Shown here one piece after another: positions 28,768 through 47,844 of a stretch of 64,000 nt of DNA. Source of the stretch: an uncultured Roseovarius sp. (GTDB lineage Bacteria; Pseudomonadota; Alphaproteobacteria; Rhodobacterales; Rhodobacteraceae); NCBI GenBank assembly GCA_947499555.1, contig CANMOU010000002.1:62001-126000 (forward strand), read 5' to 3'. The stretch's first letter is position 1; each line of letters begins with the position of its first letter. Both the position numbers and the translations under genes were made by a program. Below the pieces are notes generated by a model. The model was not told the origin of the DNA. It worked only from the letters and a program-made list of their open reading frames with translations, and did not search any database.

Positions 28768-28783
28768 ACTCCTTAAAAAAAGA

Positions 28784-28806: not shown

Positions 28807-28834
28807 GGTATCCTTCTCGGGCAAGGAGTCCGTC

Positions 28835-29329: not shown

Positions 29330-30136
29330 ATGCGTCGCCTAGTCATGATCTGTCTGTGTGTTATCGGCCTTCCAGCGTTTGCCTCGCCCCCATCGGAAAC
29401 CTGCCATGCGCAGGTGCCCTGTGAGATCGGCAAGCGATCCTATCACGTGCTGGAACCGGATGGATGGGATGGCAAAACGCCTTTGCCGGTCTTGATGCAT
29501 TTCCACGGCTGGCAAAGACAGGGCACGCTGATTGTCAAGCATGGGCGGATCGCAGCGGCGACACGCAAACGCGGCGTGCTGCTTGTCGCTCCCAATGGTG
29601 CGCGAAAAACCTGGGATTTCTGGCACCCCGGCACGCCTGACGTGGATTTCGGCCGCGCGGTTCTGGAGGATATCAAGAAACGATATCCGGTGGATGAGAC
29701 CCGTGTATACGTCTCGGGCTACAGCTGGGGCAGCAACATGGCCTGGCGCTTTGTCTGCGAGGACGGTGCCGATGTGACAGCCTTGCTGGCCATTTCTGGT
29801 GTTCTTGATCAGTCTGAAGAGTGCGGCACGGCACCAGGCGAAGTGCGCCAGGTTTACGGCCTGAAAGATACCGTGCTGGAATTCCCGTACGGCCCGGGCG
29901 GCGACACCACTTACCCCGTGCAGCTTTGGCGCGAACGTTTGGGATGCGCGCCAGCGGGCGAAGAAGCCGGTGAATGGCGGATCACGAAACATGATCTCTT
30001 CACTCGCACGGTCTGGGAAGACTGCAGCGAAGGTCGCGTCAGCATTGACATCCACCCACGCGGCCATTTCATCCCGCGCGGATGGATTGCGCGCCAGCTT
30101 GATCAGATTCTGGGCCTGCCTTATTCCTATCCCTGA
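29330..30136 (+). CDS. secreted PHB depolymerase/esterase-like hydrolase (second copy)
   Basis: A 268-residue alpha/beta hydrolase with a signal peptide (residues 1-18, ending FASPP). It is organised like the protein at 5265. The CEIGKRSYHV entry, HFHGW oxyanion region, Ser132 in SGYSWGS, a likely Asp in YGLKDTV and the His in PRGHFIPRGW are present. The nucleophile motif GYSWGS differs from GFSAGG in the other copy, so specificity probably differs. No polymer-binding domain is present. A periplasmic or secreted ester hydrolase is the safe description. Confidence 0.72.
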   Translation: MRRLVMICLCVIGLPAFASPPSETCHAQVPCEIGKRSYHVLEPDGWDGKTPLPVLMHFHGWQRQGTLIVKHGRIAAATRKRGVLLVAPNGARKTWDFWHPGTPDVDFGRAVLEDIKKRYPVDETRVYVSGYSWGSNMAWRFVCEDGADVTALLAISGVLDQSEECGTAPGEVRQVYGLKDTVLEFPYGPGGDTTYPVQLWRERLGCAPAGEEAGEWRITKHDLFTRTVWEDCSEGRVSIDIHPRGHFIPRGWIARQLDQILGLPYSYP

Positions 30137-30206
30137 CCGGTCGCTGGTTCGGCTTGACTTGTCGGTCACTCCGGCTCAGCCTTTCGAAACTTGCGGAGGG
30201 CCTGCC

Positions 30207-31139
30207 ATGAAAGACCAATCAGCTGATAATTTCACCCTGAGGGCACGCCGGGATGGCGGCGGCACACCTCAACTCAATGCCTGGGGGGCCAATTCGGACT
30301 ACGGAACGCTGCGCTCCGTCCTTTTGGGACCTATTGAGAATTACAAATGGTTACAAACATCCTCGGTGTCCAAAAAAACCTTGCGCCGGGGTGTTCCCTT
30401 TGATGCTGATGTCGCGAAGCGGCAGCATGCCGAGATGGTCAGCGCCTATCAAAGCGCTGGTGTTGAGGTGCACACCCACGCACCGGACCCGCATCTGCAT
30501 TACCAGGTTTATGCCCGCGACAGCTCTGTCATGACACCGTTTGGTGCGATCATCACGCACATGGCGCAATGGTGGCGTCGGGGGGAAAATTTCCGCGCAA
30601 TCGAGACCTACCAATCTCTTGGCATCCCGATTTACGATTTTGTCACGGCTGGCACATTCGAAGGCGGGGATTTCAACGTGATCGAACCTGGCTGCGTGTT
30701 GATTGGCTGGGAAGGCGATGAAGGGCGAACCCAAGAACAAGGCGCCCGACAGGTCGCCGGGTGGATGGAGGCCGAAGGCTGGGAAGTGAAGCTGGCCGAT
30801 ATTGACCCTTTTTATGTTCATATTGACCTGATGGTCGTGATGCTCGCCCCCAAACTGGCGGCGGTTTGCACGGATTGCACCGATCCCGACATAGTCGACT
30901 GGCTGCGTGGCAAAGGAATTGAGATTGTCGACGTGCCATTTCAGGAAACCATCGCATTGGGCTGCAATGTCGTGGCCTTAGGAGAAGATCGGGTGCTTCT
31001 GCCGGAAGGGTCAAAGACGCTCAAGGACAAGCTTAAGGCCTTGGGTTTTGCAATATATGATCCCGATCTGAGCATGATCACGCAAGGCGGTGGCGGCGTG
31101 CATTGCATGTGCCAAAGCCTTATCCGCGATCCCGTTTGA
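30207..31139 (+). CDS. dimethylarginine dimethylaminohydrolase/arginine deiminase-like protein
   Basis: A 310-residue guanidine-modifying enzyme superfamily member (beta-propeller pentein fold). Visible are the YARDSSVM segment (about 102-109), EGGDF at 152-156, the catalytic His205 in YVHIDLMV and the nucleophile Cys300 in GGVHCMCQSL. These match DDAH, arginine deiminase and amidinotransferases. Possible reactions are hydrolysis of methylated arginines or of arginine, or amidino transfer. CGGAGGG lies upstream of the ATG at 30207. It is followed on the same strand by a polytopic membrane protein and the ABC importer operon. Confidence 0.82.
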   Translation: MKDQSADNFTLRARRDGGGTPQLNAWGANSDYGTLRSVLLGPIENYKWLQTSSVSKKTLRRGVPFDADVAKRQHAEMVSAYQSAGVEVHTHAPDPHLHYQVYARDSSVMTPFGAIITHMAQWWRRGENFRAIETYQSLGIPIYDFVTAGTFEGGDFNVIEPGCVLIGWEGDEGRTQEQGARQVAGWMEAEGWEVKLADIDPFYVHIDLMVVMLAPKLAAVCTDCTDPDIVDWLRGKGIEIVDVPFQETIALGCNVVALGEDRVLLPEGSKTLKDKLKALGFAIYDPDLSMITQGGGGVHCMCQSLIRDPV

Positions 31140-32713: not shown

Positions 32714-34000
32714 ATGACCAAACTGATCAAAGGAACAACACGTCGGGGCGCGCTCAAGACCCTGGCCGGTGCCGCCGCGGGTACAGCCGCCCTGCCGCTT
32801 TGGGCGCGCTATGCGCAGGCGCAAAGTTCGGAGCCGATTAAGATCGGTTTTCAGCAGCACAGCACTGGCATCGGCGCGGCCTATGGCCGTTGGTACGGCC
32901 GCACGACTGAAGCAGCGGTCAAAGTGATCAATGATGGCGGTGGCATCAATGGCCGGATGATCGAGGTGATTGCAGAAGATGACGGCACCGATCCCAAGCG
33001 CGGGGCCGAGGTGGTTGAGAAATTCGCCAATCAACACAATTGCGATGTGGCTTTCGGCACTCTTTTCAGCCATGTGGTCATCGGCTCCAGCCCCCGCGCA
33101 GGAGAGCTGAAACTGCCGTATTTTGTGGTCTCTGAGGGCCACCATGTCGCTTCGGGCATGCTCAATCGCTACACGCTGCAGCCCGGCATCACGGATGTGA
33201 AAAGCCAGGTCCAGGCGATGGCGCCTTACGTTTCGGAGAACCTCGGCAAAAAGGTCACCATGATCTTCCCTGACTTTGCCTTTGGCCATGACCACCGTGA
33301 CTTCTTCTCGGCTGCGATCGAGGCGCAGGGCGGTGAGGTGCTCGAAAAGATCGCCATCCCACCGACTGAGACATCCTTCACCAAGTATTTCCCCCGTATT
33401 CCGCGCGACACAGAGGTTCTGTATCACGTCATGGTCGGGCCTGCGGTTCTGACCTTTGTCAAAGAACTGGGCGAGTTTTTTGGCCCCTCAAGCCCTGCCA
33501 TATTTGGCTTTATCGACAGCCTTGAGGCTGTGGACATTGCCAGCCCTGGGCTCGAATTCCTGGAAGGGACGTATTTCTGGGAGGGCAATCCGCGATACGC
33601 TCAGGCCGATCAGACCGAGTATGACAAGGCCTTCCGCGCGGCTGTGGGTGTTGATGACAACGGAGCATCCATCAGCGACCCAACAGATGTGTCCACCTAT
33701 GCTCATATGTTCGGCTGCTGGGAGACGCTGCATGTGATCAAACATGGCTTAGAGCACTCTGGCTACCAAGGTCCGGGCGACCGCGCCAAACTGATCGAGG
33801 CGGTTGAGGCGTTGACAGATTTTCCAGAAGGACATGCCCATCCACAAGGTGCTAAGATATTCAACGGCAAGACACACCAGGTCTTTGGCCATCAATATAT
33901 CAGCCGCGTCGAAAACGGTAAGCTGGTACGCGTGCATACGACATCGATCGAGGACACGCTTTATCCCGATGAGGTCGATTACACCACTCAACCCCTTTAA
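32714..34000 (+). CDS. ABC transporter substrate-binding protein, branched-chain amino acid/amide type
   Basis: A 428-residue periplasmic binding protein with a twin-arginine signal (TTRRGALKTLAGAAAG, cleavage near ARYAQAQSS). A type I LivJ/FmdD/UrtA-like fold follows: IKIGFQQHSTGIGAAYGRWYGR, DDGTDPKRGAEVVEKF and SEGHHVASGMLNRYTLQPG. This branch binds amino acids, amides, urea or aromatic carboxylates. Its position at the head of a molybdenum hydroxylase and 6-hydroxynicotinate reductase-like operon suggests an N-heteroaromatic ligand. AGGGAGA precedes the ATG at 32714. The gene ends 73 bases before livH, with a hairpin in the gap. Confidence 0.88.
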   Translation: MTKLIKGTTRRGALKTLAGAAAGTAALPLWARYAQAQSSEPIKIGFQQHSTGIGAAYGRWYGRTTEAAVKVINDGGGINGRMIEVIAEDDGTDPKRGAEVVEKFANQHNCDVAFGTLFSHVVIGSSPRAGELKLPYFVVSEGHHVASGMLNRYTLQPGITDVKSQVQAMAPYVSENLGKKVTMIFPDFAFGHDHRDFFSAAIEAQGGEVLEKIAIPPTETSFTKYFPRIPRDTEVLYHVMVGPAVLTFVKELGEFFGPSSPAIFGFIDSLEAVDIASPGLEFLEGTYFWEGNPRYAQADQTEYDKAFRAAVGVDDNGASISDPTDVSTYAHMFGCWETLHVIKHGLEHSGYQGPGDRAKLIEAVEALTDFPEGHAHPQGAKIFNGKTHQVFGHQYISRVENGKLVRVHTTSIEDTLYPDEVDYTTQPL

Positions 34001-34009
34001 TCTTATTGC

Positions 34010-34046
34010 CTGTGGGGGCCTAGCGCGTTCGTGCTGATCCCCGCAG
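34010..34046 (+). promoter_or_regulatory. intergenic hairpin between binding-protein and permease genes
   Basis: CTGTGGGG (34010-34017) pairs with CCCCGCAG (34039-34046), and the loop itself contains GCG-TTCG-TGC. There is no T-run. Such hairpins after binding-protein genes often stabilise the upstream message and lower expression of the permease genes. That role is inferred here. Confidence 0.5.
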
Positions 34047-34073
34047 CGCACAAAGCCTGGTGCCAGTCTAGTC

Positions 34074-35000
34074 ATGGAATTTGGACCCCACCTTTTGTTG
34101 GCCACGCTTGAGGGCGCGGTGACGGCGGCTGTACTGGCGCTCACCGCCGTCGGGCTAAGCCTCGTATTCGGCGTTATGCGGGTGGTCAACATCGCCCATG
34201 GCGAGTTTTACATGCTCGGCGCGGTGATTGCCTGGTATGTGGCGCACATGATGGGAGGCCATCCCGCGCTCGGCTTTTTCCTGGCGCTCGTATTGGCACC
34301 TCTGCTGGTCGGGGCGATTGCGGTTTTGGCCGATGTCATCATTCTCAAGCGGGTTGACTATGATCCCGAGCGGACAATCGTGGCCACAATCGGCCTGCTA
34401 TACATCATCCAGCAACTGACGCTGATGACCTATGGGCCCGAGGCGCGGCCCGTCGAGGCGCCTTTCAATTCCCGCATCGCGCTGCCCTGGTTTGAATGGG
34501 GCGAGAACGGGTTTCAATTCTACTATCCCTGGGGCCTTTCGACGACCTCTTACAAACTGGCGGTCATCGGTGCGGCGGGCGTCGTGCTTTTGGGTGTCTG
34601 GGCGATGATGACGCGCACCAAAGTGGGCTTGCTTATGCGTGCAACCCAAGCTGACCGGGACATGGCGCTGGCCTTTGGTATCCCTGTCGAAAGGGTCTAT
34701 GCTCTCGTCTTCGGGATTGGCGCGGCCTTGGCCGCCCTTGGTGCCGTGCTGATCGTGCCTATCCAGCAAGCGCATTACCTGATGGGCGCCGACCCGCTTC
34801 TGCTGGCCTTTATTGTTGTCATCATCGGCGGTCTCGGGAGCCTTCCGGGCACGGTCCTTGCTGCGCTCTTCATCGGTTTGTCCGACGGGATCATATCCGT
34901 CTTCTTCTCGCCCACGCTGGCCAAAATACTGGCCACACTTCTTGTCGGCCTGGTCCTGGTCTGGCGACCACAAGGCCTGTTTGGGACACGCACCGCATGA
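34074..35000 (+). CDS. ABC transporter permease, LivH type
   Basis: A 308-residue inner-membrane permease of the LivH family with about eight membrane segments. Hallmarks are LTAVGLSLVFGVMRVVNIAHGEFYMLGA near the N-terminus, MRATQADRDMALAFGIPVERVYALVFGIGAALAALGAVL and VVIIGGLGSLPGTVLAALFIGLSDG. It forms the translocation pore with the LivM-type partner encoded next, overlapping by four bases. The four transporter genes after the binding protein are fully overlapped with one another, consistent with one co-translated unit. Confidence 0.92.
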   Translation: MEFGPHLLLATLEGAVTAAVLALTAVGLSLVFGVMRVVNIAHGEFYMLGAVIAWYVAHMMGGHPALGFFLALVLAPLLVGAIAVLADVIILKRVDYDPERTIVATIGLLYIIQQLTLMTYGPEARPVEAPFNSRIALPWFEWGENGFQFYYPWGLSTTSYKLAVIGAAGVVLLGVWAMMTRTKVGLLMRATQADRDMALAFGIPVERVYALVFGIGAALAALGAVLIVPIQQAHYLMGADPLLLAFIVVIIGGLGSLPGTVLAALFIGLSDGIISVFFSPTLAKILATLLVGLVLVWRPQGLFGTRTA

Positions 35001-35941
35001 CGGCCTCGTCGCGCGTCATCGTCCTGCATCTGGGATTGCTGGCGTTGCTCTTTGGCCTGCAATTCATCCTGCCTGCCTATCATCACGGCAACCTGGCACG
35101 GATCATGGTGCTGGCCTCTTATGCTGTGGGGTACAACATACTCTTTGGCTATACCGGATTGCTGAGCCTGGGCCATGCCTTGTTCTTCGCCGCCGGCATG
35201 TACGGCATGGGCTTGACGATCCAGCACATGGGCTTCACACCTGCCCCGGCGCTGATTGTCGGCATTGTTGCCGGGGCTTTCGTGGCTGGTGCGCTGGCCC
35301 TTCTGGCGCTGCGGACTGTTGGCGTTTCTTTCATGATCGTCACGCTCATGTTCGCGCAGGCAGGCTATCTCACGGTGCTTTACTTTGGAGAATACACACG
35401 AGGCGACGAAGGGTTTGTCATTCAACAGGCTCAACGCGTGCTTTGGGGTGTCGACCTGAGCAATGCGACCAACCGATACTTCGCGGCATGGGGATTGTTC
35501 TCTGTGTCATTCGGGCTGTCGCTCTGGCTGGTGCGAAGCTCTTTCGGGCGCACGCTCATCGCCATTCGTGAAAACGAAGAACGGGTGCGCATGCTTGGCT
35601 ATGACACCTATAAGCACAAGCTCACCGCGATGATCATTTCCGGGACGATTTCGGCAGCCGCCGGGGCGTTTTACGGTCTGCTTTTTGGCTATGCCGGCGC
35701 AAGCTTTGCCTCTGTGCAATATTCCATCTTCCCGTTGCTCTGGGTGCTGTTGGGCGGGGCCGGAACCGTGCTCGGACCCTTTGTCGGGACGCTCTTCATG
35801 TTTTACCTGATTGATCTCAGTTCGGGCATCACGTCCGCCTATCTGCTGATCGCGGGTCTGGCGCTTGTCTTGCTGACGCTTTTTGCACCTCAAGGGTTGA
35901 TTGGCGAGATCAGGCGGCGCTTCTGGAAGAACCTGCCATGA
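34997..35941 (+). CDS. ABC transporter permease, LivM type
   Basis: A 314-residue LivM-family permease with about nine membrane segments. Features are LASYAVGYNILFGYTGLLSLGHALFFAAGMYG, the cytoplasmic coupling loop GRTLIAIRENEERVRMLGYDTYKHKL and VLLGGAGTVLGPFVGT. It pairs with the LivH-type protein. Both ends overlap neighbours by ATGA, so stoichiometric expression with the other subunits is expected. Confidence 0.92.
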   Translation: MTASSRVIVLHLGLLALLFGLQFILPAYHHGNLARIMVLASYAVGYNILFGYTGLLSLGHALFFAAGMYGMGLTIQHMGFTPAPALIVGIVAGAFVAGALALLALRTVGVSFMIVTLMFAQAGYLTVLYFGEYTRGDEGFVIQQAQRVLWGVDLSNATNRYFAAWGLFSVSFGLSLWLVRSSFGRTLIAIRENEERVRMLGYDTYKHKLTAMIISGTISAAAGAFYGLLFGYAGASFASVQYSIFPLLWVLLGGAGTVLGPFVGTLFMFYLIDLSSGITSAYLLIAGLALVLLTLFAPQGLIGEIRRRFWKNLP

Positions 35942-36645
35942 TGATCCTGTCGACCCGCGGCCTCAGCAAATCGTTTGACGGGCTGCAGGCCGTGACAAAG
36001 GTCGATTTCGACCTGCCAAAAGGCGAAGTGCGCGCGCTCATAGGTCCCAACGGCGCAGGAAAGACCACGCTTGTCGGCATGATCTGTGGGCGGATTGAGC
36101 CGACATCCGGTCATGTGCAGTTCGACGGCGAAGACATCACGCGCCTGCCTGCGCATGCCAGGATCATGCGCGGCATGGCATATACTTTTCAGATAACGTC
36201 GGTCTTTGCCCGACTGCCAGTCACGGAAAACGTCGCCCTCGCCGCGCGGCGGCGCCTTTCCGGTGACGCCATTGATCGCGCAGTGGCAGATGCCCTGGCG
36301 CGGGTTGGTCTGTCGAATGAGGCCCATGAGGACGCCGGTAACCTCAGCTATGGGCACCAGCGCCTGCTCGAAATTGCCATGGGTCTTGCACAATCACCCC
36401 GCCTTCTGATCCTCGACGAACCAACACAAGGGCTTTCGGAAGGCGAGATTGCCGATTTCAAGACGCTGGTGCGGGAACTGGCGGGCGACACCACTATTCT
36501 GCTGATTGAGCATAATATGGATGTGGTGATGGAAACCGCCGATCGGGTCAGCGTGCTCAATTTCGGAGAAATACTTGCCGAAGGTACGCCCACCGAGATC
36601 CGCGAAAACGCAGCCGTTCAGGCGGCCTATCTGGGAACGGGATGA
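35938..36645 (+). CDS. ABC transporter ATP-binding protein, LivG type
   Basis: A 235-residue ATPase of the LivG family. The Walker A GPNGAGKTT lies at about residues 38-46, the Q-loop/LivG-specific QITSVFARLPVTENVALAARRR follows, then the ABC signature LSYGHQR, Walker B LLILDEPTQGLS and the H-loop IEHNMDVV. Start is ATG at 35938 (a second ATG follows directly). It overlaps livM and livF by four bases. Confidence 0.93.
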   Translation: MMILSTRGLSKSFDGLQAVTKVDFDLPKGEVRALIGPNGAGKTTLVGMICGRIEPTSGHVQFDGEDITRLPAHARIMRGMAYTFQITSVFARLPVTENVALAARRRLSGDAIDRAVADALARVGLSNEAHEDAGNLSYGHQRLLEIAMGLAQSPRLLILDEPTQGLSEGEIADFKTLVRELAGDTTILLIEHNMDVVMETADRVSVLNFGEILAEGTPTEIRENAAVQAAYLGTG

Positions 36646-37340
36646 TGCTGGAACTGCGCAAGATCAATTCCGGCTACGGGGCGGCGCAGGTTCTGCGCGA
36701 CGTTTCTCTCTCGGTCGCACCCGGCGAAATTCTTTGTCTGCTTGGCCGCAATGGTGCTGGCAAGACTACGACGATGCAGACGATCATGGGCCTTCTTCCC
36801 TTGATGTCTGGAAAGATCCTGCTTGACGGCAGGGATGTCGGCGCGCTGCCCACGCACGAAGTTCCGCGCGCAGGGATCGGCTATATCCCACAGGGGCGGC
36901 GCCTTTTCACCGGTCTGAGCGTGGCACAGAATCTCGAGATCGGGCTGCAGGTCCGGAATTCGGGCCGCGAGGTGCTTGACGAGGTGCTCGATCTTTTTCC
37001 GCGGCTGCGCGAACGAATGAGCCAACCGGCGCAAACCCTCTCGGGTGGAGAGCAGCAGATGCTGGCCACGGCACGCGCCTTGTGCATCAAACCCAAGGTG
37101 CTCTTGCTGGATGAGCCGACAGAAGGGCTGCAACCTTCAATGATCGAAGCGATCCGGCAGGTGATCGTCAAGATGCGCGAGGCTGGCGTGGCCATCTTGC
37201 TTGTTGAACAACGGATAGAGGCTGTTTTGTCGGTGGCGGACCGGGTGGCATTCATCGAAAACGGGCGAAACGGCGAAACCATGACGGTGGCAGAAATGCG
37301 AGCCAATCCCCATGTGGTGGATCGCTATGTCGGCGTTTGA
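36642..37340 (+). CDS. ABC transporter ATP-binding protein, LivF type
   Basis: A 232-residue LivF-family ATPase. Walker A is GRNGAGKTTTMQ, then IGYIPQGRRLFTGLSVAQNL, the signature LSGGEQQMLATARAL, Walker B VLLLDEPTEGLQPSM and the H-loop region VEQRIEAVL. It is the last transporter gene. The FAD-subunit gene of the molybdenum hydroxylase starts 83 bases later, and no terminator is visible between them. Confidence 0.93.
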   Translation: MMLELRKINSGYGAAQVLRDVSLSVAPGEILCLLGRNGAGKTTTMQTIMGLLPLMSGKILLDGRDVGALPTHEVPRAGIGYIPQGRRLFTGLSVAQNLEIGLQVRNSGREVLDEVLDLFPRLRERMSQPAQTLSGGEQQMLATARALCIKPKVLLLDEPTEGLQPSMIEAIRQVIVKMREAGVAILLVEQRIEAVLSVADRVAFIENGRNGETMTVAEMRANPHVVDRYVGV

Positions 37341-37423
37341 CGCGCTCTGTGCGACCAAACTTGCCGAGTTGACACCCGCAAGCCCGTTGCCGCACGATTA
37401 TCTGAAAGGAACAGGATAAAGCG

Positions 37424-38281
37424 TTGCCGGAAATCGCCTACCACCGACCAGATACGTTGGCCCAGGCGCTCTCGCTTTTGCAGAGCGGCCAGCATCGTAT
37501 AGCCGCCGGGTGCACCGATCTTTTTCCCGCGACGCAAGCCCCTGCTTTGGACGGGCCAGTTCTCGACATTACCGGGATTGACGATCTCCGGGGCATTTCC
37601 AGGACAGATGACGGCCTGCGCATGGGCGCGACGACGCGTTGGGCAGACGTCATCAAGGCCAATCTGCCACCGGCTTTCGACATGCTCAAAGCAGCGGCGC
37701 GCGAGGTTGGCTCGGTCCAGATTCAGAACTCGGCGACGCTGGCCGGCAATCTTTGCAATGCATCACCGGCAGCCGATGGTGTCCCCTGTCTTCTTGCACT
37801 TGATGCGCAGGTCGAGCTGGCTTCGGAAAATGGGCATCGAATCCTGCCCTTATCCGAATTCCTGACAGGCCCCCGCCGGACCGCCTTACGCCCAGACGAG
37901 ATACTCACCGCAATCGAAGTGCCTGCTCAAGCCTGTCAGGGTCGCTCATCCTTTCGGAAACTCGGTGCGCGCAAGTATCTTGTGATCTCAATTGCCATGG
38001 TGGCGACACGCCTGGTTGTCCAAGATGACAAAGTGGCTGAGGCCGCGATATCCGTTGGATCGTGCAGTGCCGTCGCAACCCGCCTGCCGGAACTGGAGCA
38101 AGCCCTTGTCGGAAGGACGGCGGATCGCGCCTTGCCCGACATCGCGACACCAGATGTCATCGCCCGTCGCCTGTCACCTATCGACGATATCCGCGCTGAC
38201 GCAGGCTACCGCACCCGTGCAGCCGCTGAACTGGTCAAACGCACATTACGGGATATCGCAACGCGCGAGGTGCCGGCATGA
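37424..38281 (+). CDS. molybdenum hydroxylase FAD-binding subunit (xanthine dehydrogenase family)
   Basis: A 285-residue CoxM/FAD_binding_5 subunit that passes electrons between the 2Fe-2S centres and an external acceptor via FAD. The AAGCTDLFP motif (about 26-34) and QNSATLAGNLCNASPAADGVPCLLALDAQVEL (around 105-135) are the FAD-binding signatures. The start is TTG at 37424 with AGGA seven bases upstream; no suitable ATG is near. Its stop overlaps the start of the fused 2Fe-2S/Mo subunit. With that protein it forms a hydroxylase of the nicotinate/xanthine dehydrogenase type. Confidence 0.9.
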   Translation: MPEIAYHRPDTLAQALSLLQSGQHRIAAGCTDLFPATQAPALDGPVLDITGIDDLRGISRTDDGLRMGATTRWADVIKANLPPAFDMLKAAAREVGSVQIQNSATLAGNLCNASPAADGVPCLLALDAQVELASENGHRILPLSEFLTGPRRTALRPDEILTAIEVPAQACQGRSSFRKLGARKYLVISIAMVATRLVVQDDKVAEAAISVGSCSAVATRLPELEQALVGRTADRALPDIATPDVIARRLSPIDDIRADAGYRTRAAAELVKRTLRDIATREVPA

Positions 38282-40965
38282 ATCGTCCGGTTGGCACGAT
38301 GACCCTGACGGTCAATGGCTCAGAAGTCAGCCTTCCGGCTGATCCCGCAAGACGGCTAAGCGAAGTGCTGCGCGAGCAGTTGGGATTGCGCGGAACGAAG
38401 GTTGGCTGTGACGCCGGTGATTGCGGGGCCTGCACCGTCTTGTTGGATGGCGCGCCGACCTGTGCTTGCCTCACCCCCTTGGCACAGGCTGCGGGACGCT
38501 CGGTCGAAACAGTAGAAGGGCTTGGGAATTCCCCCCTGCAACAGGCGTTTCTGCGCCACGGCGCCGCCCAATGCGGTATCTGCACGCCGGGGATGCTGAT
38601 GACCGCCACGGGGTTCTTGCGGGAAATGCCATCGCCGACACGCACGGATGTGGAAGAGGCACTGGGCGGGGTCTTGTGCCGGTGCACCGGCTATACAAAG
38701 ATCATCGACGCCATTCTGGATGCAGCTCCGGGTGCCCCAGAGGCCATGCCCGCCTCGGGCCATGCCGTGGGTGCGCATGTGGCACGTCTGGATGGCGCTC
38801 CCAAAGTCGCGGGGTGCGAAGTTTTTGGCGCAGACCACATTCGCGAGGATGCCTTGCTTGTCCGCGCTGTTCGCGCGCCTGGAGCGCCATTGACCTTTGA
38901 GTTCGGCCCTCTTTCCGACTGGGCGGACAGCAAGGGCGTTGAGGTCCTCACATCACGCGACATTCCTGGGCGAAACCGCTTCGGGGTCATTCCAGCCTTT
39001 GTCGATCAACCCGCCCTGGCCGAGGGCTATGCGCGATTGAAAGGCGAAGCCGTTGCATTGGTGGCGGGTCCGGCGGAAATCGTGTCGGCCCTTGATCTGA
39101 AGGATTTCCCGATCAAGTGGGCACAGGCTGATGTTGATGCGCCTGTTCATGCCAGCCATCCTGACAACCGGCTCATTTCGGGCAAGGTGCGTCGAGGCGA
39201 TGTGCTGTCAGCGATGGAGCGTGCCGCTTTTGTCGCTGAAGGCTCGATGGAAACGCCTTATGTCGAACACGCCTATATCGAACCCGAAGCTGGCATTGCC
39301 TGGATGGAAGGCGATACGCTGGTCATCCAGGCCTGCACCCAGGCCCCGATCATGGATCGCGACGATACCGCAGCCATACTGGGCCTGCCCAATGAGAACG
39401 TCCGCATCATTCCAGCCGCCACCGGTGGCGGCTTTGGCGCAAAGCTGGATCTCTCGCTTCAACCGCTGATCGGCCTTGTCGCACTCAAGACCGGTCGGGC
39501 CGCCCGCATGATCTACACGCGCGCGGAAAGCATGGCCTCAACAACCAAGCGGCATCCCTCAAGAATGTCCGGCCGTGTGAGTGCCGATGCGCAAGGCCGC
39601 ATCACAGGCATGGAGTTTGACGGAGATTTCAACACAGGCGCTTATGCAAGCTGGGGCCCGACCGTCTCTGGCCGCGTCCCTGTCCATGCCTCTGGCCCAT
39701 ATTACATCCCCAATTACCATGCCGAAGCGCGGGCAAACTATTCTTATGAGCCAATCTCGGGCGCATTTCGTGGGTTTGGCGTGCCACAGGCCGCGATCCT
39801 GCAGGAAACCATTTTCGATGATCTGGCAATGCAAATCGGAATGGACCGACTGGCGTTTCGCCATCTGAACGCGCTTCGGGATGGTTTGGATACGGTCTGC
39901 GGGCAGGTCTTGCAAGGCGTGGGTATTGCCCAGTGTCTTGATGCGCTCAAGGACCCTTGGGAAAAGGCTTGCGCGCGGGCCCAGGCGGCGAACGACCGTG
40001 CAGATGCTCAGCGCCACGGCGTCGGCGTTGCCTCTTGCTGGTACGGTTGCGGCAACACCGCCATTGCCAACCCGTCGACCATTCGCGTCGGCCTGACCGC
40101 GCAGGGCAGGCTTTTCCTGCATCAGGGGGCGGTCGATATCGGCCAGGGCTCCAACACCGTCATCCCGCAGATCTGCGCGGATGCACTTGGACTACCGCTG
40201 GCACAGATGGAAATTATCGGCGCAGACACTGCCTTGACGCCTGATTGTGGCAAGACATCCGGCTCGCGCCAGACCTATGTCACCGGAAGCGCCGCTCTCA
40301 GGGCGGGGCAATCGCTGCGCGCGCAAATCCTGGCTCTGACCAATATGGGAGCAGAGGCAACACTGAGCTTGGAACCGGGCAGCCTCATCGTCAGCGATGG
40401 CCATGTTGAAAGGCGTATTCAACTCGCCGACCTGAAAGAACAGGCAAACGGTTATGTTCTGTCAGCAGAAGAAACCTATGATCCGCCAACAAAGCCTCTG
40501 GATGAGAACGGTCAGGGGGCGCCCTATGCCGTTTACGGCTATGGTGCGCAGATGGTGGAACTTTCGGTTGATGTGAAGCTCGGCACCGTCAAGGTTCACA
40601 AGATCACCGCAGCGCATGATCTGGGCCGCGTGATCAATCCGGCATTGGCCGAAGGGCAGGTTCATGGGGGCATCGCTCAGGGGCTTGGTCTTGCCTTGAT
40701 GGAAGAGTTCATCCCCGGGCGCACCGAAAACCTGCATGACTACCTCATTCCCACCACCGGCGACATGCCTGAGATCGAAACGCTTTTCATCGAGGTCCCC
40801 GACCCGGAAGGCCCGATGGGCGCAAAAGGTTTGGGCGAACATGTCCTGATCCCGACGGCACCAGCCATTCTGAATGCGATCCGTCACGCCACGGGTGCAC
40901 TGGTCACGCAGCTTCCGGCCCTGCCCCACAGGGTCTTGGCCGCCATCGAACAGGCACAACGCTGA
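38278..40965 (+). CDS. fused 2Fe-2S and molybdopterin subunit of a xanthine-dehydrogenase-family hydroxylase
   Basis: An 895-residue protein joining two subunits that are often separate. Residues 8-80 hold a plant-type 2Fe-2S domain (Cys44, Cys49, Cys52, Cys64). Residues 85-150 hold the second 2Fe-2S domain (Cys99, Cys102, Cys134, Cys136). From about 165 on come the hammerhead and molybdopterin domains (TGGGFGAKLDLS, GAFRGFGVPQA, GQGSNTVIPQICADALG). The likely active-site Glu854 lies in AKGLGEH. The size is close to that of the Desulfovibrio aldehyde oxidoreductase Mop, but here an FAD subunit is encoded beside it. Water-derived hydroxylation of an N-heterocycle is the inferred reaction, since a 6-hydroxynicotinate reductase-like gene follows directly. 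Confidence 0.9.
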   Translation: MNRPVGTMTLTVNGSEVSLPADPARRLSEVLREQLGLRGTKVGCDAGDCGACTVLLDGAPTCACLTPLAQAAGRSVETVEGLGNSPLQQAFLRHGAAQCGICTPGMLMTATGFLREMPSPTRTDVEEALGGVLCRCTGYTKIIDAILDAAPGAPEAMPASGHAVGAHVARLDGAPKVAGCEVFGADHIREDALLVRAVRAPGAPLTFEFGPLSDWADSKGVEVLTSRDIPGRNRFGVIPAFVDQPALAEGYARLKGEAVALVAGPAEIVSALDLKDFPIKWAQADVDAPVHASHPDNRLISGKVRRGDVLSAMERAAFVAEGSMETPYVEHAYIEPEAGIAWMEGDTLVIQACTQAPIMDRDDTAAILGLPNENVRIIPAATGGGFGAKLDLSLQPLIGLVALKTGRAARMIYTRAESMASTTKRHPSRMSGRVSADAQGRITGMEFDGDFNTGAYASWGPTVSGRVPVHASGPYYIPNYHAEARANYSYEPISGAFRGFGVPQAAILQETIFDDLAMQIGMDRLAFRHLNALRDGLDTVCGQVLQGVGIAQCLDALKDPWEKACARAQAANDRADAQRHGVGVASCWYGCGNTAIANPSTIRVGLTAQGRLFLHQGAVDIGQGSNTVIPQICADALGLPLAQMEIIGADTALTPDCGKTSGSRQTYVTGSAALRAGQSLRAQILALTNMGAEATLSLEPGSLIVSDGHVERRIQLADLKEQANGYVLSAEETYDPPTKPLDENGQGAPYAVYGYGAQMVELSVDVKLGTVKVHKITAAHDLGRVINPALAEGQVHGGIAQGLGLALMEEFIPGRTENLHDYLIPTTGDMPEIETLFIEVPDPEGPMGAKGLGEHVLIPTAPAILNAIRHATGALVTQLPALPHRVLAAIEQAQR

Positions 40966-42416
40966 TGGAAAAGCGACGCCAACAGGACGAGAAGATCCGC
41001 TGCGATGCCTGTCCGGTGATGTGTTATATTGCGCCGGGCAAAGTCGGCGCTTGCGATCGCTACGCCAATCAGGACGGTCGCATCATCCGCTGTGATCCTC
41101 TGACGCTTCTGGACCGGCGCATCGAAGCCGGTGGAGAGATACGTCCCTTTCTGAAAACGGACTGGGATGGCGGCGTGATTGGCACGGACGATGTTTTTGT
41201 CTCGGGCGTCGGATCCGGCACCACTTACCCCGATTACAAACCCGCGCCCTTTATTGTCAGCCGCGAGATTGAAGGCGCGGACGTGGTGACCGTGGTGACA
41301 GAGGCCATCTTTTCCTACTGCGGCGTCAAAGTAAAAATCGACACCGACCGCCATCTTGGCCATGAGACCGCGCTTGTCCGTGCCAATGGCGAAGCAATCG
41401 GGCATGTGACAACCTCGGAATATGGCTCACAGATGCTGTCTTTGGGTGGTGTCGATCATCTCACGGGCGGCTCAAAAGCCGAAGGCCGCGTGACCTGCGA
41501 TGCTCTCCTGCGGCTCTGTAATCGGGAGGCTGTTGAGCTGGCAATCGATGACGGCGCAATCGTTGTCGTGCAGGCTGGTCAGCCTCCAATCGTTGACGGT
41601 CAGAAGGAAGAGCGAATGCGAGTCGGTTGCGGCTCGGCCACGATCGGCATGTTCGCCTCACAATGGCAGGGGCTTGTGAATGAGGTAGTCGTGGTCGACG
41701 ACCACATCACCGGCGTTGTCAGCGAGCATCAGGCAGGCAAAGTGCTCGACTGGCCCGACACCGGCATCCGGATCAAAGGGCACCGCTCGACCCCGGGACG
41801 GTATTTCAAAGTGGCGCAACCGGGCCAGGGCTGGGGTGGAACGGACATTGATGACCCGCTCAGCATCCTCAATCCCTGGCTGGAAAAGAAGGGCGCGCGA
41901 CCTGGCCTTAGCCTTCTGATGGTCTCTACCACCGGAGAGCATGCCGGATACTACGTGCTTGATGACGATCTGGTTCCGCAAAAACACCCCATGCCCGCAC
42001 CGCTGCAAGCGTCAGTCGATCTGATTGCCGAGAATTGCGAGCCAGCCCTTTGCACCGTAATGTTTCAGGCCGGCGCAGGCGGCTCTTTGCGCTCGGGTGT
42101 CACGGAAAATCCGGTCAAACTGACCCGCTCGGTCCAATCCATGCACACCGCTGTCACCTGCGGTGGCGTGCCTGCCTATGTCTGGCCGGGCGGCGGGATC
42201 ACCCTGATGGTCGACGTGCTGGACATGCCCGACGGGTCCTTTGGATATGTCCCGACCCCGGCGCTCGTGGCGCCGCTTGAATTCACATTGCGCCGCGACG
42301 ACTACCGCGCGTTAGGAGGGCATGACGCAGCGATCCGCACGGTTGAAGACGTCATTCAGAAGGGCGGCGAATACGGTGCCGAGATCCGGGCGGTTCCGCC
42401 AAAGGGACAAGCTTGA
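40965..42416 (+). CDS. 6-hydroxynicotinate reductase-like iron-sulfur protein
   Basis: A 483-residue protein that I recognise as the 6-hydroxynicotinate reductase family. The N-terminus has Cys13-x2-Cys16-x3-Cys20-x9-Cys30 (IRCDACPVMCYIAPGKVGAC), which probably holds an Fe-S cluster. A large beta-rich domain follows with IVSREIEGADVVTVVTEAIF, TSEYGSQMLSLGGVDHLTGGSKAEGR and VGCGSATIGMFA. In the anaerobic nicotinate pathway this enzyme reduces 6-hydroxynicotinate to 1,4,5,6-tetrahydro-6-oxonicotinate. The start overlaps the hydroxylase stop by one base (TGATG). The substrate here is inferred from family and context. Confidence 0.82.
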   Translation: MEKRRQQDEKIRCDACPVMCYIAPGKVGACDRYANQDGRIIRCDPLTLLDRRIEAGGEIRPFLKTDWDGGVIGTDDVFVSGVGSGTTYPDYKPAPFIVSREIEGADVVTVVTEAIFSYCGVKVKIDTDRHLGHETALVRANGEAIGHVTTSEYGSQMLSLGGVDHLTGGSKAEGRVTCDALLRLCNREAVELAIDDGAIVVVQAGQPPIVDGQKEERMRVGCGSATIGMFASQWQGLVNEVVVVDDHITGVVSEHQAGKVLDWPDTGIRIKGHRSTPGRYFKVAQPGQGWGGTDIDDPLSILNPWLEKKGARPGLSLLMVSTTGEHAGYYVLDDDLVPQKHPMPAPLQASVDLIAENCEPALCTVMFQAGAGGSLRSGVTENPVKLTRSVQSMHTAVTCGGVPAYVWPGGGITLMVDVLDMPDGSFGYVPTPALVAPLEFTLRRDDYRALGGHDAAIRTVEDVIQKGGEYGAEIRAVPPKGQA

Positions 42417-43258
42417 TGCAGGGGCCGCAAATCTCATTTCTGCCGGATGGCAAACGCCTGCATCTGCATCATGGCCCGATTGACATGATCGTGGATGTGG
42501 AAGGTCCGGGGCGGGTCGACGCGCTCCGCATTGCTGTAGCGCGGTTTGAGACGCTATTGCAGGAACTTGTGGATGATCTGCCGCGTCTGCGCGCGCCCTC
42601 GGGCCCTTCCCCACATTCCGAAACAGGCAAAGCCATGGTTCGCGCCACAGATCCGTTTGCCTCTGACTTCATCACACCCATGGCCGCCGTTGCCGGGGCC
42701 GGCGCGGATAAGATCCTGAAGGCCATCTGTGACGCAGCAGAGGTGACCAAGGCCTACGTCAACAACGGTGGAGACATCGCATTCCACCTCGCAGCGGGAC
42801 AAACGCTAACCGCGCTTCTCGCATCCGAGCCAATGGCCAAAACGGTCATTGAGGCCGCTCAGCCAAGCCGCGGCATCGCCACCTCGGGATGGCGCGGTCG
42901 AAGCCAGTCACTGGGTATTGCCGACACCGTCACGGTTCTCGCCACTAATGCCGCAGCGGCCGACGCCGCCGCAACGATGATTGCCAATTCTGTCGACCTT
43001 CCGGGTCATCCTTCTGTCCTGCGGCAAGCCGCGTGCGAGATTTCACCCGATAGCGACCTGAGAGATCGCGAGGTAACCATCCGGGTTGGCACGCTGAGCG
43101 TACCGGACATTGACCGCGCGCTCGCCTGCGGCATCTGCTATGCGGACGGCCTTCTTAAGAGCGGCCTCATTCACGGAGCGTATCTCGCTCTTCAGGGTCA
43201 GTTTCGTACTCTAGGTGCCCTGCCCCTTAGCCAACAGAAAGTTCTTCAAAATGCCTGA
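42416..43258 (+). CDS. UPF0280 family protein
   Basis: A 280-residue UPF0280 protein, a family distantly related to the flavin transferase ApbE. Visible are FLPDGKRLHLHHGPIDMIVD, FASDFITPMAAVAGAGADKIL, KAYVNNGGDIAFHLAAGQ and the RGIATSGWRGRSQSLGIADTVTV segment, which resembles the nucleotide/flavin-binding part of ApbE. AAGGGA lies eight bases before the ATG at 42416; the stop of the previous gene overlaps it. The function is unknown. Placement after the reductase-like gene suggests a catalytic or flavin-related role in the same pathway. Confidence 0.85.
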   Translation: MQGPQISFLPDGKRLHLHHGPIDMIVDVEGPGRVDALRIAVARFETLLQELVDDLPRLRAPSGPSPHSETGKAMVRATDPFASDFITPMAAVAGAGADKILKAICDAAEVTKAYVNNGGDIAFHLAAGQTLTALLASEPMAKTVIEAAQPSRGIATSGWRGRSQSLGIADTVTVLATNAAAADAAATMIANSVDLPGHPSVLRQAACEISPDSDLRDREVTIRVGTLSVPDIDRALACGICYADGLLKSGLIHGAYLALQGQFRTLGALPLSQQKVLQNA

Positions 43259-43832
43259 GTTCAAACTGCGCAAGACTGCTCTTTTCGTTGAAGAAATCCA
43301 CCACGATGGCGGTCCGGCCAATGAAAAGCCCCGCCGCAGGGCCGCCCTTGCGGCGCTGGTGAGCAACCCTTTTGCCGGGACATATGTTGATGATCTGCAA
43401 TCGGCTATGGATGATCTGAAGCCTTTGGGCCTGATGATGACAGACCGCCTTGTCGACGCGATGGGCGGTCTTGAAGGGATCGATGGTTACGGCAAGGCTG
43501 CGATGGCCGGTGAGGCCGGTGAGTTGGAGCACACAGCGCTCTGGCATGTGCCGGGAGGCTACGCGATGCGCGCCCGGCTTGGCGAAGCGAAGGCGATCGT
43601 GCCGTCCTCCATGAAACAGGGCGGGCCGGGCACACGTATCGACGTGCCTCTGGGCCATATCAACGCCGCCTATGTGCGCAGCCATTTTGATGGCATGGAG
43701 GTGGGCCTGCCCGATGGCCCGCGCGCCGATGAATTGCTTTTTATCCTCGCGATGAGCCGCGGCGGACGCATCCATGATCGCATGGGCGGGCTGACGGTCG
43801 GCGACGTCAAGGGCGAGGATGGTTTGCGATAA
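43251..43832 (+). CDS. DUF1185 (amino acid synthesis family) protein
   Basis: A 193-residue member of the DUF1185 'amino acid synthesis' family. The EEIHHDGGPANEKPRRRAALAALVSNPFAGTYVDDL opening and the DVPLGHINAAYVRSHFDG and EVGLPDGPRADELLFILAMSRGGR regions are typical. The catalytic role is unknown despite solved structures of relatives. The gene overlaps UPF0280 by eight bases and ends the operon. In this context it might act on the reduced or opened ring, for example as a hydrolase or isomerase. That is speculation from position. Confidence 0.85.
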   Translation: MPEFKLRKTALFVEEIHHDGGPANEKPRRRAALAALVSNPFAGTYVDDLQSAMDDLKPLGLMMTDRLVDAMGGLEGIDGYGKAAMAGEAGELEHTALWHVPGGYAMRARLGEAKAIVPSSMKQGGPGTRIDVPLGHINAAYVRSHFDGMEVGLPDGPRADELLFILAMSRGGRIHDRMGGLTVGDVKGEDGLR

Positions 43833-43916: not shown

Positions 43917-45728
43917 ATGAGCACGCCCAAAACCAAGACGCGCGAGCCGCTTTACTCTGAAGCGGACAAGGACAATCTGCGCTGGTTCTGGCGCGATTAC
44001 CTGCGCAAGCATTTGGGCATGCTCTTTGTTGTGCTGGCCCTCATTCTTGTGCAGGGATTGGTGTATCAGCAATTCCTTGCAATGACCGAAAGTGGCCTGA
44101 GGGTTATCTTCGAAGCAGGCGCAATGCGCGAGCTCATCACGGTTTGTATTGTCGTGTTCTTGCTTTTCACCGTGCGCGGGATCGTGTCCTTTCTGGCGCC
44201 GATGATCACAGTCAAGATATCAAATCAGGCCATCTATGAAATGCGTCGCGACCTGATCGGTCATCTGATGTCGCTTGATCTTGCGTATTTTGAGCGCACG
44301 AAGTCCGGTGAAATTATCCAGAAACTGGTCACTCAAACCCAGCAGATCGGTGTTTTTGTTGGGTTTGGCGTAGCCAATGCCATCCGCGACGCGGTCACTG
44401 TGATCGTTGTCTCAGGCTACCTTATTTGGAAAAACCCCATCCTCTTTGCCTCGGCGGTCATCGTGCTGCCCTTCATCATCATGGTGATGAATTTCGTATC
44501 TGACAGGGTCAAACGCGGGCAAGCGGACGCCGAACAGGCGCTGGGCGACTACATGAATGGGATCGAAGAGACGGTGAACGGCATGCGCACCGTCAAGATT
44601 TCCAGTCAGGAAGAGGTTGAGAAAGAGCGCTTGTTCAAAGGCACGAAATCTCTCCGTCACCTCATGAACCGGGTGCAGATCACCCAGGCTCTTGTCCTGC
44701 CCTCAATCGATCTCAGTTCCGCGTTTGTCTACGTGCTGGTGATCGGTGGCGGCGGCTACATGGTGCTCAGCCCAGATTTCGATGTCGACGGGGCCGCGAT
44801 AATCACCTTCCTTCTGGGCATGGTCATGGTGTTCGATCCCGCGCGTCTTCTGGCTCAGTTCTTTGGCGCTTTGCAATCAAACCTCGTGCTGCTCGACAGG
44901 GTACGATCTCTTTACTCTGAGACACCCAGCATCAATGACGCACCTGGGGCGATCCCTGACTTCGACACGGGCGGTGACATCGAATTGCGCGATGTCGCGT
45001 TCTCGTATGACCCCGAACAGCCGCTTTTTGAGAGGCTCAACATGGCGTTCAAAGGCGGGCATGTCTCAGCCATCGTGGGGGCAACCGGCTCTGGCAAGAC
45101 CACGATCCTGTCCTTGCTTTCCCGGCTATATGACGTGCAATCGGGCGAAATCACCTTTGGGGGCACACCTGTCCGCGATCTGCAAGTCGCGCGCCTGCGC
45201 GGAGCTTTCTCGGTGGTTGCGCAAGACATTGTCATCTTCAATGCCTCGATCTGGGACAATATTCGCTACGTGAACCCCGAGGCCAGCGAGGAAGATATCT
45301 GGCGCGCGGCGGAAAATGCCGAGATTGCAGATCTCGTCCGGCGGCGCGGCGACACACCTGTCGGCCCCAAAGGCGCGCAACTGTCGGGCGGTCAGAAACA
45401 ACGTATCGCTATCGCCCGGGCATTTTTGCGCGATGCGCCAATCCTGCTCTTGGATGAGGCCACGTCGGCGCTTGATCAGGCCACGGAAGAGCGCATCAAG
45501 ACAGCTTTGGAACGGCTGACCAAAGGCAAAACCACCATCATCGTTGCCCACCGTCTTAGCTCAATCGCGCATGCAGACCGCATTTTCGTACTCGAAGGCG
45601 GCCAGCTTGTAGAGCAAGGCAGGCATGACGATCTTCTAGGCCAAAACGGGCTTTATGCGCAGCTATATCAGGCGCAGAAGAAGGGCTACGACGAGAGCAA
45701 GACCGCTAAGGAGCAGAGCCTTAGGTGA
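43917..45728 (+). CDS. ABC transporter, fused permease and ATPase
   Basis: A 603-residue ABC half-transporter of the exporter type. An N-terminal six-helix domain spans about residues 30-330, with the coupling MSLDLAYFERTKSGEIIQKL. The nucleotide-binding domain follows, with Walker A GATGSGKTT, Q-loop VAQDIVIFNASIWDNI, signature LSGGQKQRIAIARAF, Walker B ILLLDEATSALD and H-loop VAHRLSS. It would work as a homodimer and could export lipids, peptides or drugs. It follows the DUF1185 gene by 84 bases. Its stop overlaps the moeA-fusion stop on the other strand by eight bases. Confidence 0.9.
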   Translation: MSTPKTKTREPLYSEADKDNLRWFWRDYLRKHLGMLFVVLALILVQGLVYQQFLAMTESGLRVIFEAGAMRELITVCIVVFLLFTVRGIVSFLAPMITVKISNQAIYEMRRDLIGHLMSLDLAYFERTKSGEIIQKLVTQTQQIGVFVGFGVANAIRDAVTVIVVSGYLIWKNPILFASAVIVLPFIIMVMNFVSDRVKRGQADAEQALGDYMNGIEETVNGMRTVKISSQEEVEKERLFKGTKSLRHLMNRVQITQALVLPSIDLSSAFVYVLVIGGGGYMVLSPDFDVDGAAIITFLLGMVMVFDPARLLAQFFGALQSNLVLLDRVRSLYSETPSINDAPGAIPDFDTGGDIELRDVAFSYDPEQPLFERLNMAFKGGHVSAIVGATGSGKTTILSLLSRLYDVQSGEITFGGTPVRDLQVARLRGAFSVVAQDIVIFNASIWDNIRYVNPEASEEDIWRAAENAEIADLVRRRGDTPVGPKGAQLSGGQKQRIAIARAFLRDAPILLLDEATSALDQATEERIKTALERLTKGKTTIIVAHRLSSIAHADRIFVLEGGQLVEQGRHDDLLGQNGLYAQLYQAQKKGYDESKTAKEQSLR

Positions 45729-47844
45729 AACTGGCAAACGGGATGTAGCGTACGGGCGTTCCGGCCTTGATCGTGACCGCGCCATCGGGCAGCTCCACCA
45801 GCCCCTCGGCCCAGCTCAGCCCGCTGATCCGCCCGGACCCCTCGGATTTGAAGACCTCAACCTGTCCGTCCCGCACCCGTGCCCGCAGATATTCGCGCCG
45901 GCCCGGTTTCTTCTTTTTCTCGAAGGCTGCCGGAAGCAAATACCCTTGCGGATCCTGCCAGTCCTGACCCGACAGCACCCGCATCGCGGGACGTGCGAAA
46001 ATCAAGGTGCAGACAAGCGCCGCCACCGGATTGCCCGGCAACCCAAAGACCGGCGTGTCCTGCCACAGACCAAGCGCAAGGGGCCGCCCGGGTTTCAGTG
46101 CTATGCGCCACTGCGCCATCGCACCCGCATCGGTCAACAGCGCCGAAACATGATCCTCATCACCTGCCGACGCGCCGCCCGAGGTCAGGATCACATCCGC
46201 CTCCCGCGCCGCCTCATCCAAAGCCGCGCGCAGGTTCTCACGATCATCCGGTACCCGACCCAGATCTACGGCGTCATATCCAAACTGCCGCACAAGGCCG
46301 AGAAGCATGGGGCGGTTGGCGTCATAAATCTGCCCCGGCGCGGCATCCTGCCCGGCCTCGACCAACTCATCTCCGGTCGAAATCACCGCAACCCGCAGCC
46401 TTTCGCGCGCAGTCATCTCCGACTGGCCCGTGGCCGCAGCCAAGGCAAGATCGGCCGGTGTCAGGCGCCGCCCGGCAGGCAGAATAGTGTCCCCCACCTC
46501 AACATCCTCACCGGCCCTCCGCGTGTTGGCACCCGGTTTAAGACCTGCGCGAAACGCAATCTCGCCCGTGCCCAGTGTCACATCCTCTTCAAGGATGACG
46601 GTGTCGACGCCTTCGGGCAAGGCCGCGCCGGTCAGCACACGGATCGCATGCCCCTTGGGCACAGTGCCGGCAAACGGCACTCCCGCGGCAGAGCGTCCTT
46701 CCACCAATGGCAAAACCTGATCACCCTCGCCCAGGCTCTCATAGGCAAACCCATAGCCATCCACGGCGGTATTGGCCTCTGGCGGGTTGGCCCTCTTGGC
46801 CGCCAAGGGCGCAGCGAGCACCCGGCCCAAGCCGTCCCGCAACGCGATGCCTTCGGTCCCGACAACAGGGCTCAGCCTGTCGCGCAGCATGCCGAGTGCT
46901 GCATCCACCGGCGTCCAATCCACGCCCGCGGGAAGAGCGAAACAATCATCCCGCAAGGGCGGCGGTTGCAGCCTGAATGTCGCCAGTTCTACCAATCTAT
47001 CTTTGTGTCCGGCTCCTAAAATCCAAGCTTCTTCTTGTGCGTCCTCAGGCGGTTCCGCCATAAGCCGGGCCAATTCGTCAGCAGGCATTCGCGATATCGC
47101 TGTTGCAAGCAAAAGCACCTGTTCGCGATCTCGGATAAAACCATCCGGTGCTCTTCTGAGACGGTCTTTTACGGCAGGCTCAATCAGGCCTGGCCATATC
47201 TCTGCCAGAACAATTGCAGAGGATGATGTGTTTTCGAACGGCCAGACCGCTGCACCGGTGCCTCGTCGCAGTCTGGAAAGTGTTGGTAAGCCCATTAAGA
47301 TTTGTCCACCAACGGTCGGTGGGAAAGCGAGTTGAAAACAGGATGAGGACGCAGCGGCGGCATGATCGCAGGTTCGACGCTCTGCTACCTTTTCGTAAAC
47401 AATTCCAGATTTTCGATAAGGGATTTCGGGCCAATCTGTTTGGTTCGGCTTCCCCCAGAATGGGCCTGGCCCATCAAACAACCCGTTTATCTCTGCTGCT
47501 ATGTCGTAGCGATTATTCGCACCATCTGGTGCATCAGTGATCCGCGCTTCAAGCCAGTCCCACAGATCGAATGGATCGTCCGAACCAGTAATGCGCGCGG
47601 CAAAGCCCTTTGGATACCCAAAAGGAAAGTCGAAACCTGCCAGCACCCGTCTGCCTGCAGCGGCCTCAGATTTTAGAAACGTTGCAAGCCACGATTCAGC
47701 GTCGGCTCGTGTCCTGCAATAGACGGGTTCTTCCGGTACGCCCTGTCGTGCAATACCAAGCCAAATCGCGTCCTTCGACGGCTTCTGTGGGGCACGTTTG
47801 CCCGCCGACCAATCAGCAATCAATATGGTGTCGAAGCCAATCAC
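45721..47844 (-). CDS. moeA: molybdopterin molybdenumtransferase MoeA with extra N-terminal domain
   Basis: A 707-residue fusion. Residues about 1-300 form an uncharacterised domain with FDTILIADWSAGKRAP, RRVLAGFDFPFGYPKGF and YRKSGIVYEKVAERRTCD, which looks RNase H-like (DUF429-like) but is not confidently classified. Residues about 315-700 are a full MoeA: NTAVDGYGFAYE, TGAALPEGVDTVILEEDV, VAVISTGDELVEAG, VILTSGGASAGDEDHV and FGLPGNPVAALV. MoeA inserts molybdate into adenylylated molybdopterin. The GTG start overlaps the mobB stop. Normal MoeA is about 400 residues, so the extra 300 are unusual. Confidence 0.88.
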   Translation of the reverse strand: MIGFDTILIADWSAGKRAPQKPSKDAIWLGIARQGVPEEPVYCRTRADAESWLATFLKSEAAAGRRVLAGFDFPFGYPKGFAARITGSDDPFDLWDWLEARITDAPDGANNRYDIAAEINGLFDGPGPFWGKPNQTDWPEIPYRKSGIVYEKVAERRTCDHAAAASSSCFQLAFPPTVGGQILMGLPTLSRLRRGTGAAVWPFENTSSSAIVLAEIWPGLIEPAVKDRLRRAPDGFIRDREQVLLLATAISRMPADELARLMAEPPEDAQEEAWILGAGHKDRLVELATFRLQPPPLRDDCFALPAGVDWTPVDAALGMLRDRLSPVVGTEGIALRDGLGRVLAAPLAAKRANPPEANTAVDGYGFAYESLGEGDQVLPLVEGRSAAGVPFAGTVPKGHAIRVLTGAALPEGVDTVILEEDVTLGTGEIAFRAGLKPGANTRRAGEDVEVGDTILPAGRRLTPADLALAAATGQSEMTARERLRVAVISTGDELVEAGQDAAPGQIYDANRPMLLGLVRQFGYDAVDLGRVPDDRENLRAALDEAAREADVILTSGGASAGDEDHVSALLTDAGAMAQWRIALKPGRPLALGLWQDTPVFGLPGNPVAALVCTLIFARPAMRVLSGQDWQDPQGYLLPAAFEKKKKPGRREYLRARVRDGQVEVFKSEGSGRISGLSWAEGLVELPDGAVTIKAGTPVRYIPFASFT

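Follow-up and report, generated by a model that had tools for sequence, protein, structure and literature searches.

A 64,000-bp window of contig CANMOU010000002.1 (positions 62,001–126,000; uncultured Roseovarius sp., assembly GCA_947499555.1) was found to contain ten genes on the plus strand at 32714–43832 (Table 1), which probably serve the uptake and reductive breakdown of nicotinate, with a ring-opening enzyme encoded elsewhere in the genome. All ten genes were present in the order given by a first-pass annotation of this DNA: the substrate-binding protein (SBP), two permeases and two ATPases of a Liv/Urt-type ATP-binding cassette (ABC) importer, two subunits of a molybdenum hydroxylase, a 6-hydroxynicotinate reductase-like protein (HNR), UPF0280 and DUF1185. 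The importer set was complete (SBP, two BPD_transp_2 permeases, two ATPases), and the hydroxylase showed the flavin adenine dinucleotide (FAD), 2Fe-2S and molybdenum cofactor domains and the GxKGxGE motif of the xanthine dehydrogenase family. Overlaps of 4 bases were found at the permease/permease, permease/ATPase, ATPase/ATPase and FAD/Mo subunit junctions, while the Mo subunit and HNR genes overlapped by 1 base, HNR and UPF0280 by 1 or 4 bases, and UPF0280 and DUF1185 by 8 bases when the ATG start was used. The overlaps of 1–8 bases noted in the first pass, from livH to livF and from the FAD subunit to DUF1185, were recovered in this way. The chain is broken by gaps of 73 bases between the SBP and permease genes and 83 bases between the ATPase and FAD subunit genes. 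The operon is real.

Table 1. Genes of the putative nicotinate operon in the window, and the unlinked HyuAB genes of the same genome
Feature	Position	Strand	Remarks
Predicted membrane protein, 463 aa	31236..32627	+	7 candidate spans (simple hydropathy); conserved neighbour of the SBP gene
ABC importer substrate-binding protein (SBP)	32714..34000	+	Family match, Peripla_BP_6
Liv/Urt-type permease 1	34074..35000	+	Family match
Liv/Urt-type permease 2	34997..35941	+	Family match
Liv/Urt-type ATPase 1	35938..36645	+	Family match
Liv/Urt-type ATPase 2	36642..37340	+	Family match
Molybdenum hydroxylase, FAD subunit	37424..38281	+	PF00941, PF03450
Molybdenum hydroxylase, fused 2Fe-2S/Mo subunit, 895 aa	38278..40965	+	GxKGxGE motif at residue 848
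HNR, 6-hydroxynicotinate reductase-like, 483 aa	40965..42416	+	Seven Cys invariant in 63 sequences
UPF0280 (COG2122)	42413 or 42416..43258	+	NCBIfam NF003322, 325.8 bits (cut-off 290)
DUF1185, chorismate-mutase-like fold	43215 or 43251..43832	+	PF06684, 224.4 bits (gathering score 27)
HyuAB	C2:234548-238271		About 129 kb past the operon

HNR was detected in 69 of 385 genomes of a class sample (68 after one weak match was dropped), in 21 of 299 genomes of a phylum sample, 5 of which were already included in the class sample, and on 26 plasmids. A set of 22 query proteins was mapped onto 125 HNR loci, made up of the window, one locus each from 38 of 84 genomes, 6 of the 26 plasmid matches and 80 named loci, the latter being the best 80 of at least 593 confirmed stretches. 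UPF0280 was located directly 3′ of HNR in 123 of the 125 loci, and the pairing is therefore beyond chance; the exceptions were L089, with a MarR gene in between, and the short contig L112, in which UPF0280 was not found. DUF1185 was located directly 3′ of UPF0280 in 99 loci. When only loci of 14 kb or longer were counted (110), the FAD plus fused Mo hydroxylase was present in 95, a NicB-type hydroxylase replaced it in 8 (the one member examined had cytochrome c domains) and 7 had neither. The gene for the 463-aa membrane protein belongs to the cluster, since homologues were present in 35 of the 125 loci (window counted), mostly just before the SBP gene; a Pfam scan of this protein gave no family.

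A scan of HNR against Pfam and NCBIfam gave no family at E 0.001, and its predicted fold showed no clear structural match. HNR was the sole copy in the window's genome at E 0.001. The closest named proteins among the matches listed were from Roseovarius (82–83% identity), and HNR forms a single family at about 60% identity or more. Of 20 annotated plasmid records under the HNR match, 17 were labeled 6-hydroxynicotinate reductase. In two loci the HNR reading was broken, either by sequencing error or by decay: it was split into two adjacent pieces in L091 (genome G028) and contained one internal stop in L069 (genome G187).

The substrate was approached through related loci. A nicotinamidase gene was present in 37 of the 125 loci; the proteins all matched the NCBIfam model NF008623 at E 1e-50, and their alignment contained 56 invariant columns, including the Asp, Lys and Cys of the presumed catalytic triad. 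A MarR regulator was present in 86 loci. The best match of the cluster MarR query was the uncharacterised regulator 2nnn, followed by BpsR (E 6e-22), the structure of which has been solved with 6-hydroxynicotinate (PMC6837509). The Tyr, Arg and His of the BpsR 6-hydroxynicotinate pocket were kept in 81 of the 85 regulators (86 aligned) that covered all four pocket positions; for NicR of Pseudomonas putida, the BpsR binding residues are described as not conserved (PMC6837509). In addition, the amidohydrolase of sister clusters aligned over its full length with the enamidase 2VUN (E 4.5e-105). Taken together, the nicotinamidase, the MarR pocket and the enamidase alignment point to nicotinate and 6-hydroxynicotinate, and nicotinate is the best-supported substrate, as judged from relatives. 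The uptake and reductive catabolism operon proposed in the first pass for nicotinate or a related N-heterocycle is upheld to this extent.

The HNR genomes of the class sample fell into two sets according to which of two unrelated, predicted ring-opening enzymes they carried. Of the 68 genomes, 29 contained an enamidase orthologue (at least 66% identity) and 39 a HyuB orthologue (at least 64%); none contained both and none neither. The initial searches scored top candidates only, and in a rerun every candidate was scored: no listed HyuB exceeded 45% identity in 30 enamidase genomes (29 of them HNR-bearing), and no listed enamidase exceeded 39% in 38 HyuB genomes. Among 16 further HNR genomes, exactly one ring opener was present in 14 and both were present in 2. 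All 26 HNR plasmids carried exactly one opener on the same plasmid (16 enamidase, 10 HyuB). On an HNR tree of 63 rows, built by a quick search with support from the Shimodaira–Hasegawa-like approximate likelihood-ratio test (SH-aLRT) only and with the opener label of plasmid and named rows taken from the locus alone, the two states were interleaved; 5 changes are required for the label (3 or more by the starred branches) and 4 for the hydroxylase type. Because enamidase and HyuAB are complementary across HNR genomes, the simplest reading is that HyuAB performs the job of enamidase. This either/or pattern is a new observation. No link between HyuAB and nicotinate ring opening was found among the papers listed in searches of the open literature, most subscription journals lying outside the search. 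A 5-oxoprolinase in a nicotine transcriptome of Aspergillus oryzae was considered and set aside, as it is assigned there to glutathione metabolism and not to ring opening (PMC6346535).

In the window's genome (99.91% complete), no match to enamidase was found at E 0.001 (6 of 6 candidates scored), and the reported lack of enamidase in the cluster could thus be extended to the genome; the query used matched 29 other HNR genomes at 66% identity or more. The same genome encodes HyuA and HyuB with 66 and 79% identity, respectively, to an HNR-linked pair, the next HyuA there showing 35%. Their neighbours are sugar-nucleotide genes on one side and an mscL-like gene (assigned by eye) on the other. 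The HyuA and HyuB proteins linked to HNR are similar to subunits of N-methylhydantoinase, oxoprolinase and caprolactamase. For the Neorhizobium pair the nearest NCBIfam models were those of caprolactamase (482.5 and 309.2 bits), the scores being below the CapA and CapB cut-off of 1000, which sets HNR-linked HyuAB apart from CapAB. The expected product of ring reduction, 1,4,5,6-tetrahydro-6-oxonicotinate (THON), is a six-membered lactam. CapAB and OplAB, from the superfamily of HyuAB, hydrolyse lactams as ATP-dependent two-subunit enzymes (PMC11033972, PMC8453981); in the case of OplAB a six-membered lactam, delta-valerolactam, is opened at the expense of ATP (PMC11033972). HyuAB may accordingly be named a candidate ATP-dependent THON lactamase.

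A pathway can be proposed in which every reaction is predicted from gene content. The Liv-type importer would take up nicotinate or its amide, the SBP being expected to bind nicotinate or nicotinamide. The FAD/2Fe-2S/Mo enzyme, a putative nicotinate 6-hydroxylase, would convert nicotinate to 6-hydroxynicotinate, and HNR would reduce this to THON, the lactam of which would be opened in the window's organism by HyuAB without use of enamidase. UPF0280 would act in the maturation of HNR, a covalent flavin perhaps being involved; DUF1185 would handle an intermediate downstream of ring reduction. For the reading as a whole, a nicotinate operon with HyuAB in the place of enamidase, we estimate a probability of roughly 0.78.

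Several observations weigh against it. HyuAB is unlinked to the operon in the window's genome. Genomes G489 and G554, both of one genus, carry HyuB plus an enamidase of 61% identity and alone break the either/or pattern, and counts of kin genomes are not independent. Ring openers were also found without HNR, HyuB (62–63%) in 4 and enamidase in 1 of the 385 genomes, and HyuB of at least 69% identity was found on 7 Sinorhizobium/Rhizobium plasmids without HNR, the plasmids alone being searched. The window's own cluster contains neither nicotinamidase nor MarR regulator, the genome not having been searched for either, and enamidase is likewise absent from this cluster, so that all three lines of substrate evidence come from relatives. 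At the fourth pocket position, a His in BpsR, 82 of 86 regulators have Phe or Tyr. Finally, the 42% identity printed in PMC3511419 refers to strain SG-6C and not to a comparison of the window HNR with that of Eubacterium barkeri. The HNR-less genomes with either opener were G114, G217, G307, G383 and G082, and the four with HyuB came from one family.

UPF0280 was found with both ring openers, in 21 of 21 enamidase loci and 35 of 35 HyuAB loci, and is therefore more likely to serve HNR than ring opening. Part of UPF0280 aligned with the flavin transferase ApbE when its profile was compared with nine ApbE proteins (probability 91%, E 8.9e-7), although the alignment covers just 94 columns, and a single-sequence search against Pfam ApbE was not significant (E 0.94, 9.4 bits compared to a gathering score of 25.6). 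Asp183 and Thr187, which do not vary among 66 UPF0280 members, aligned with two residues constant in all nine ApbE proteins, Asp299 and Thr303, which are presumably metal ligands. We thus regard UPF0280 as a predicted distant relative of ApbE, and because of this relationship it is proposed to mature HNR, which is a plausible and the most likely role. Flavinylation and Fe-S or sulfur maturation have similar odds as the form this role would take. That UPF0280 serves HNR in sulfur trafficking or as an Fe-S factor, and not as a flavin transferase, is a serious alternative that we put at a little under even. The two invariant residues shared with ApbE speak against it, as does the covalent flavin that Hnr of E. 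barkeri reportedly contains, whereas the seven invariant cysteines in HNR would fit it. Moreover, homocysteine synthesis depends on COG2122, whose homology to ApbE is said to stop short of the flavin-binding region (PMC5764234); the archaeal MA1715, listed there as a COG2122 member, is called a sulfur-trafficking protein elsewhere (PMC12068725).

It is also conceivable that the HyuAB-type clusters act on another N-heterocycle and another lactam, and that nicotinate applies to enamidase-type clusters only. The superfamily has several substrates, relatives of HyuA with solved structures including N-methylhydantoinase and 5-oxoprolinase, and the hydroxylase type varies between clusters. However, nicotinamidase shared a locus with HyuAB 14 times and with enamidase 2 times, the MarR pocket residues are kept in nearly all regulators, and HNR is one family with the opener states interleaved on its tree, which makes a different substrate improbable. 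The first-pass annotation had placed UPF0280 and DUF1185 in the position of the missing enamidase, but ring opening by either or both is very improbable: they lie directly 3′ of HNR, and DUF1185 copies in the window's genome adjoin other putative ring-cleavage genes, yet of 21 loci with enamidase all contained UPF0280 and 19 contained DUF1185, no DUF1185 was seen in 10 of 35 HyuAB loci, and the pattern complementary to enamidase is that of HyuAB.

DUF1185 may act on the ring-opened product, since it occurs with both openers (in 25 of the 35 HyuAB loci); we consider this role tentative and rather unlikely to be the right one. Relatives with solved structures are 3byq and 2qtp. Four DUF1185 copies were found in the window's genome. 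Those at L095 and L096 were near genes for a luciferase-like monooxygenase, an aldehyde dehydrogenase and an alpha/beta hydrolase, and L096 also contained a Rieske oxygenase and a molybdenum hydroxylase; such a setting is known from trigonelline breakdown, and the two loci perhaps represent further heterocycle pathways. The fourth copy, at L097, lies beside a PhyH-type dioxygenase in a region that looks ribosomal-protein by eye. TgnF of trigonelline breakdown was set aside as a DUF1185 relative, as this rests on one statement in PMC7913881.

The operon is thus widespread and of a known kind, and the reductive nicotinate pathway itself is not new. The nicotinate fermentation of E. barkeri employs a Mo nicotinate dehydrogenase followed by 6-hydroxynicotinate reductase, the order predicted for the window, but the dehydrogenase has a separate small Fe-S subunit and two Mo subunits (3hrd chains) that are fused in the window, and enamidase is present where the window's genome has HyuAB. 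The aerobic pathway described for Azorhizobium caulinodans and Bradyrhizobiaceae resembles the one proposed here in its homologue of 6-hydroxynicotinate reductase, its putative ABC transporter for nicotinate, a linked pair of conserved proteins of unknown function, and the formation of THON by ring reduction in an aerobe (PMC3511419); strain SG-6C, A. caulinodans and B. japonicum are among the strains reported on there. Five loci of one genus, apparently Bradyrhizobium-like, contained a NicA/NicB-type hydroxylase and enamidase, in contrast to the FAD plus fused 2Fe-2S/Mo hydroxylase and HyuAB of the window.

If correct, the proposed pathway would complete the gene set of a route for vitamin B3 breakdown whose reductase is present in 68 of the 385 sampled genomes of the class. 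Proteins that at present carry the names hydantoinase or acetophenone carboxylase would gain a natural substrate, and testable roles would be available for two proteins of unknown function. As a prediction, the either/or pattern is strong and inexpensive to test. A wider claim, that in aerobic reductive nicotinate degradation two non-homologous THON openers (enamidase and HyuAB, the latter ATP-dependent) have been exchanged repeatedly and that UPF0280 is a second flavin-transferase family with HNR as its dedicated client, appears doubtful; a flavin transferase activity of UPF0280 might also explain the need for COG2122 in homocysteine synthesis elsewhere.

Other genes in the window were also noted. 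A MoeA-like protein is encoded at 45721–47844 on the minus strand, separated from the Mo hydroxylase operon by a single gene for an ABC exporter, and has an N-terminal extension of about 300 residues in which Pfam gave no match at E 1e-5. Upstream, on the plus strand, a protein with a BLUF blue-light sensor domain is encoded at 28748–29251, and a dimethylarginine hydrolase/arginine deiminase-like protein at 29970–31139, just 5′ of the cluster.

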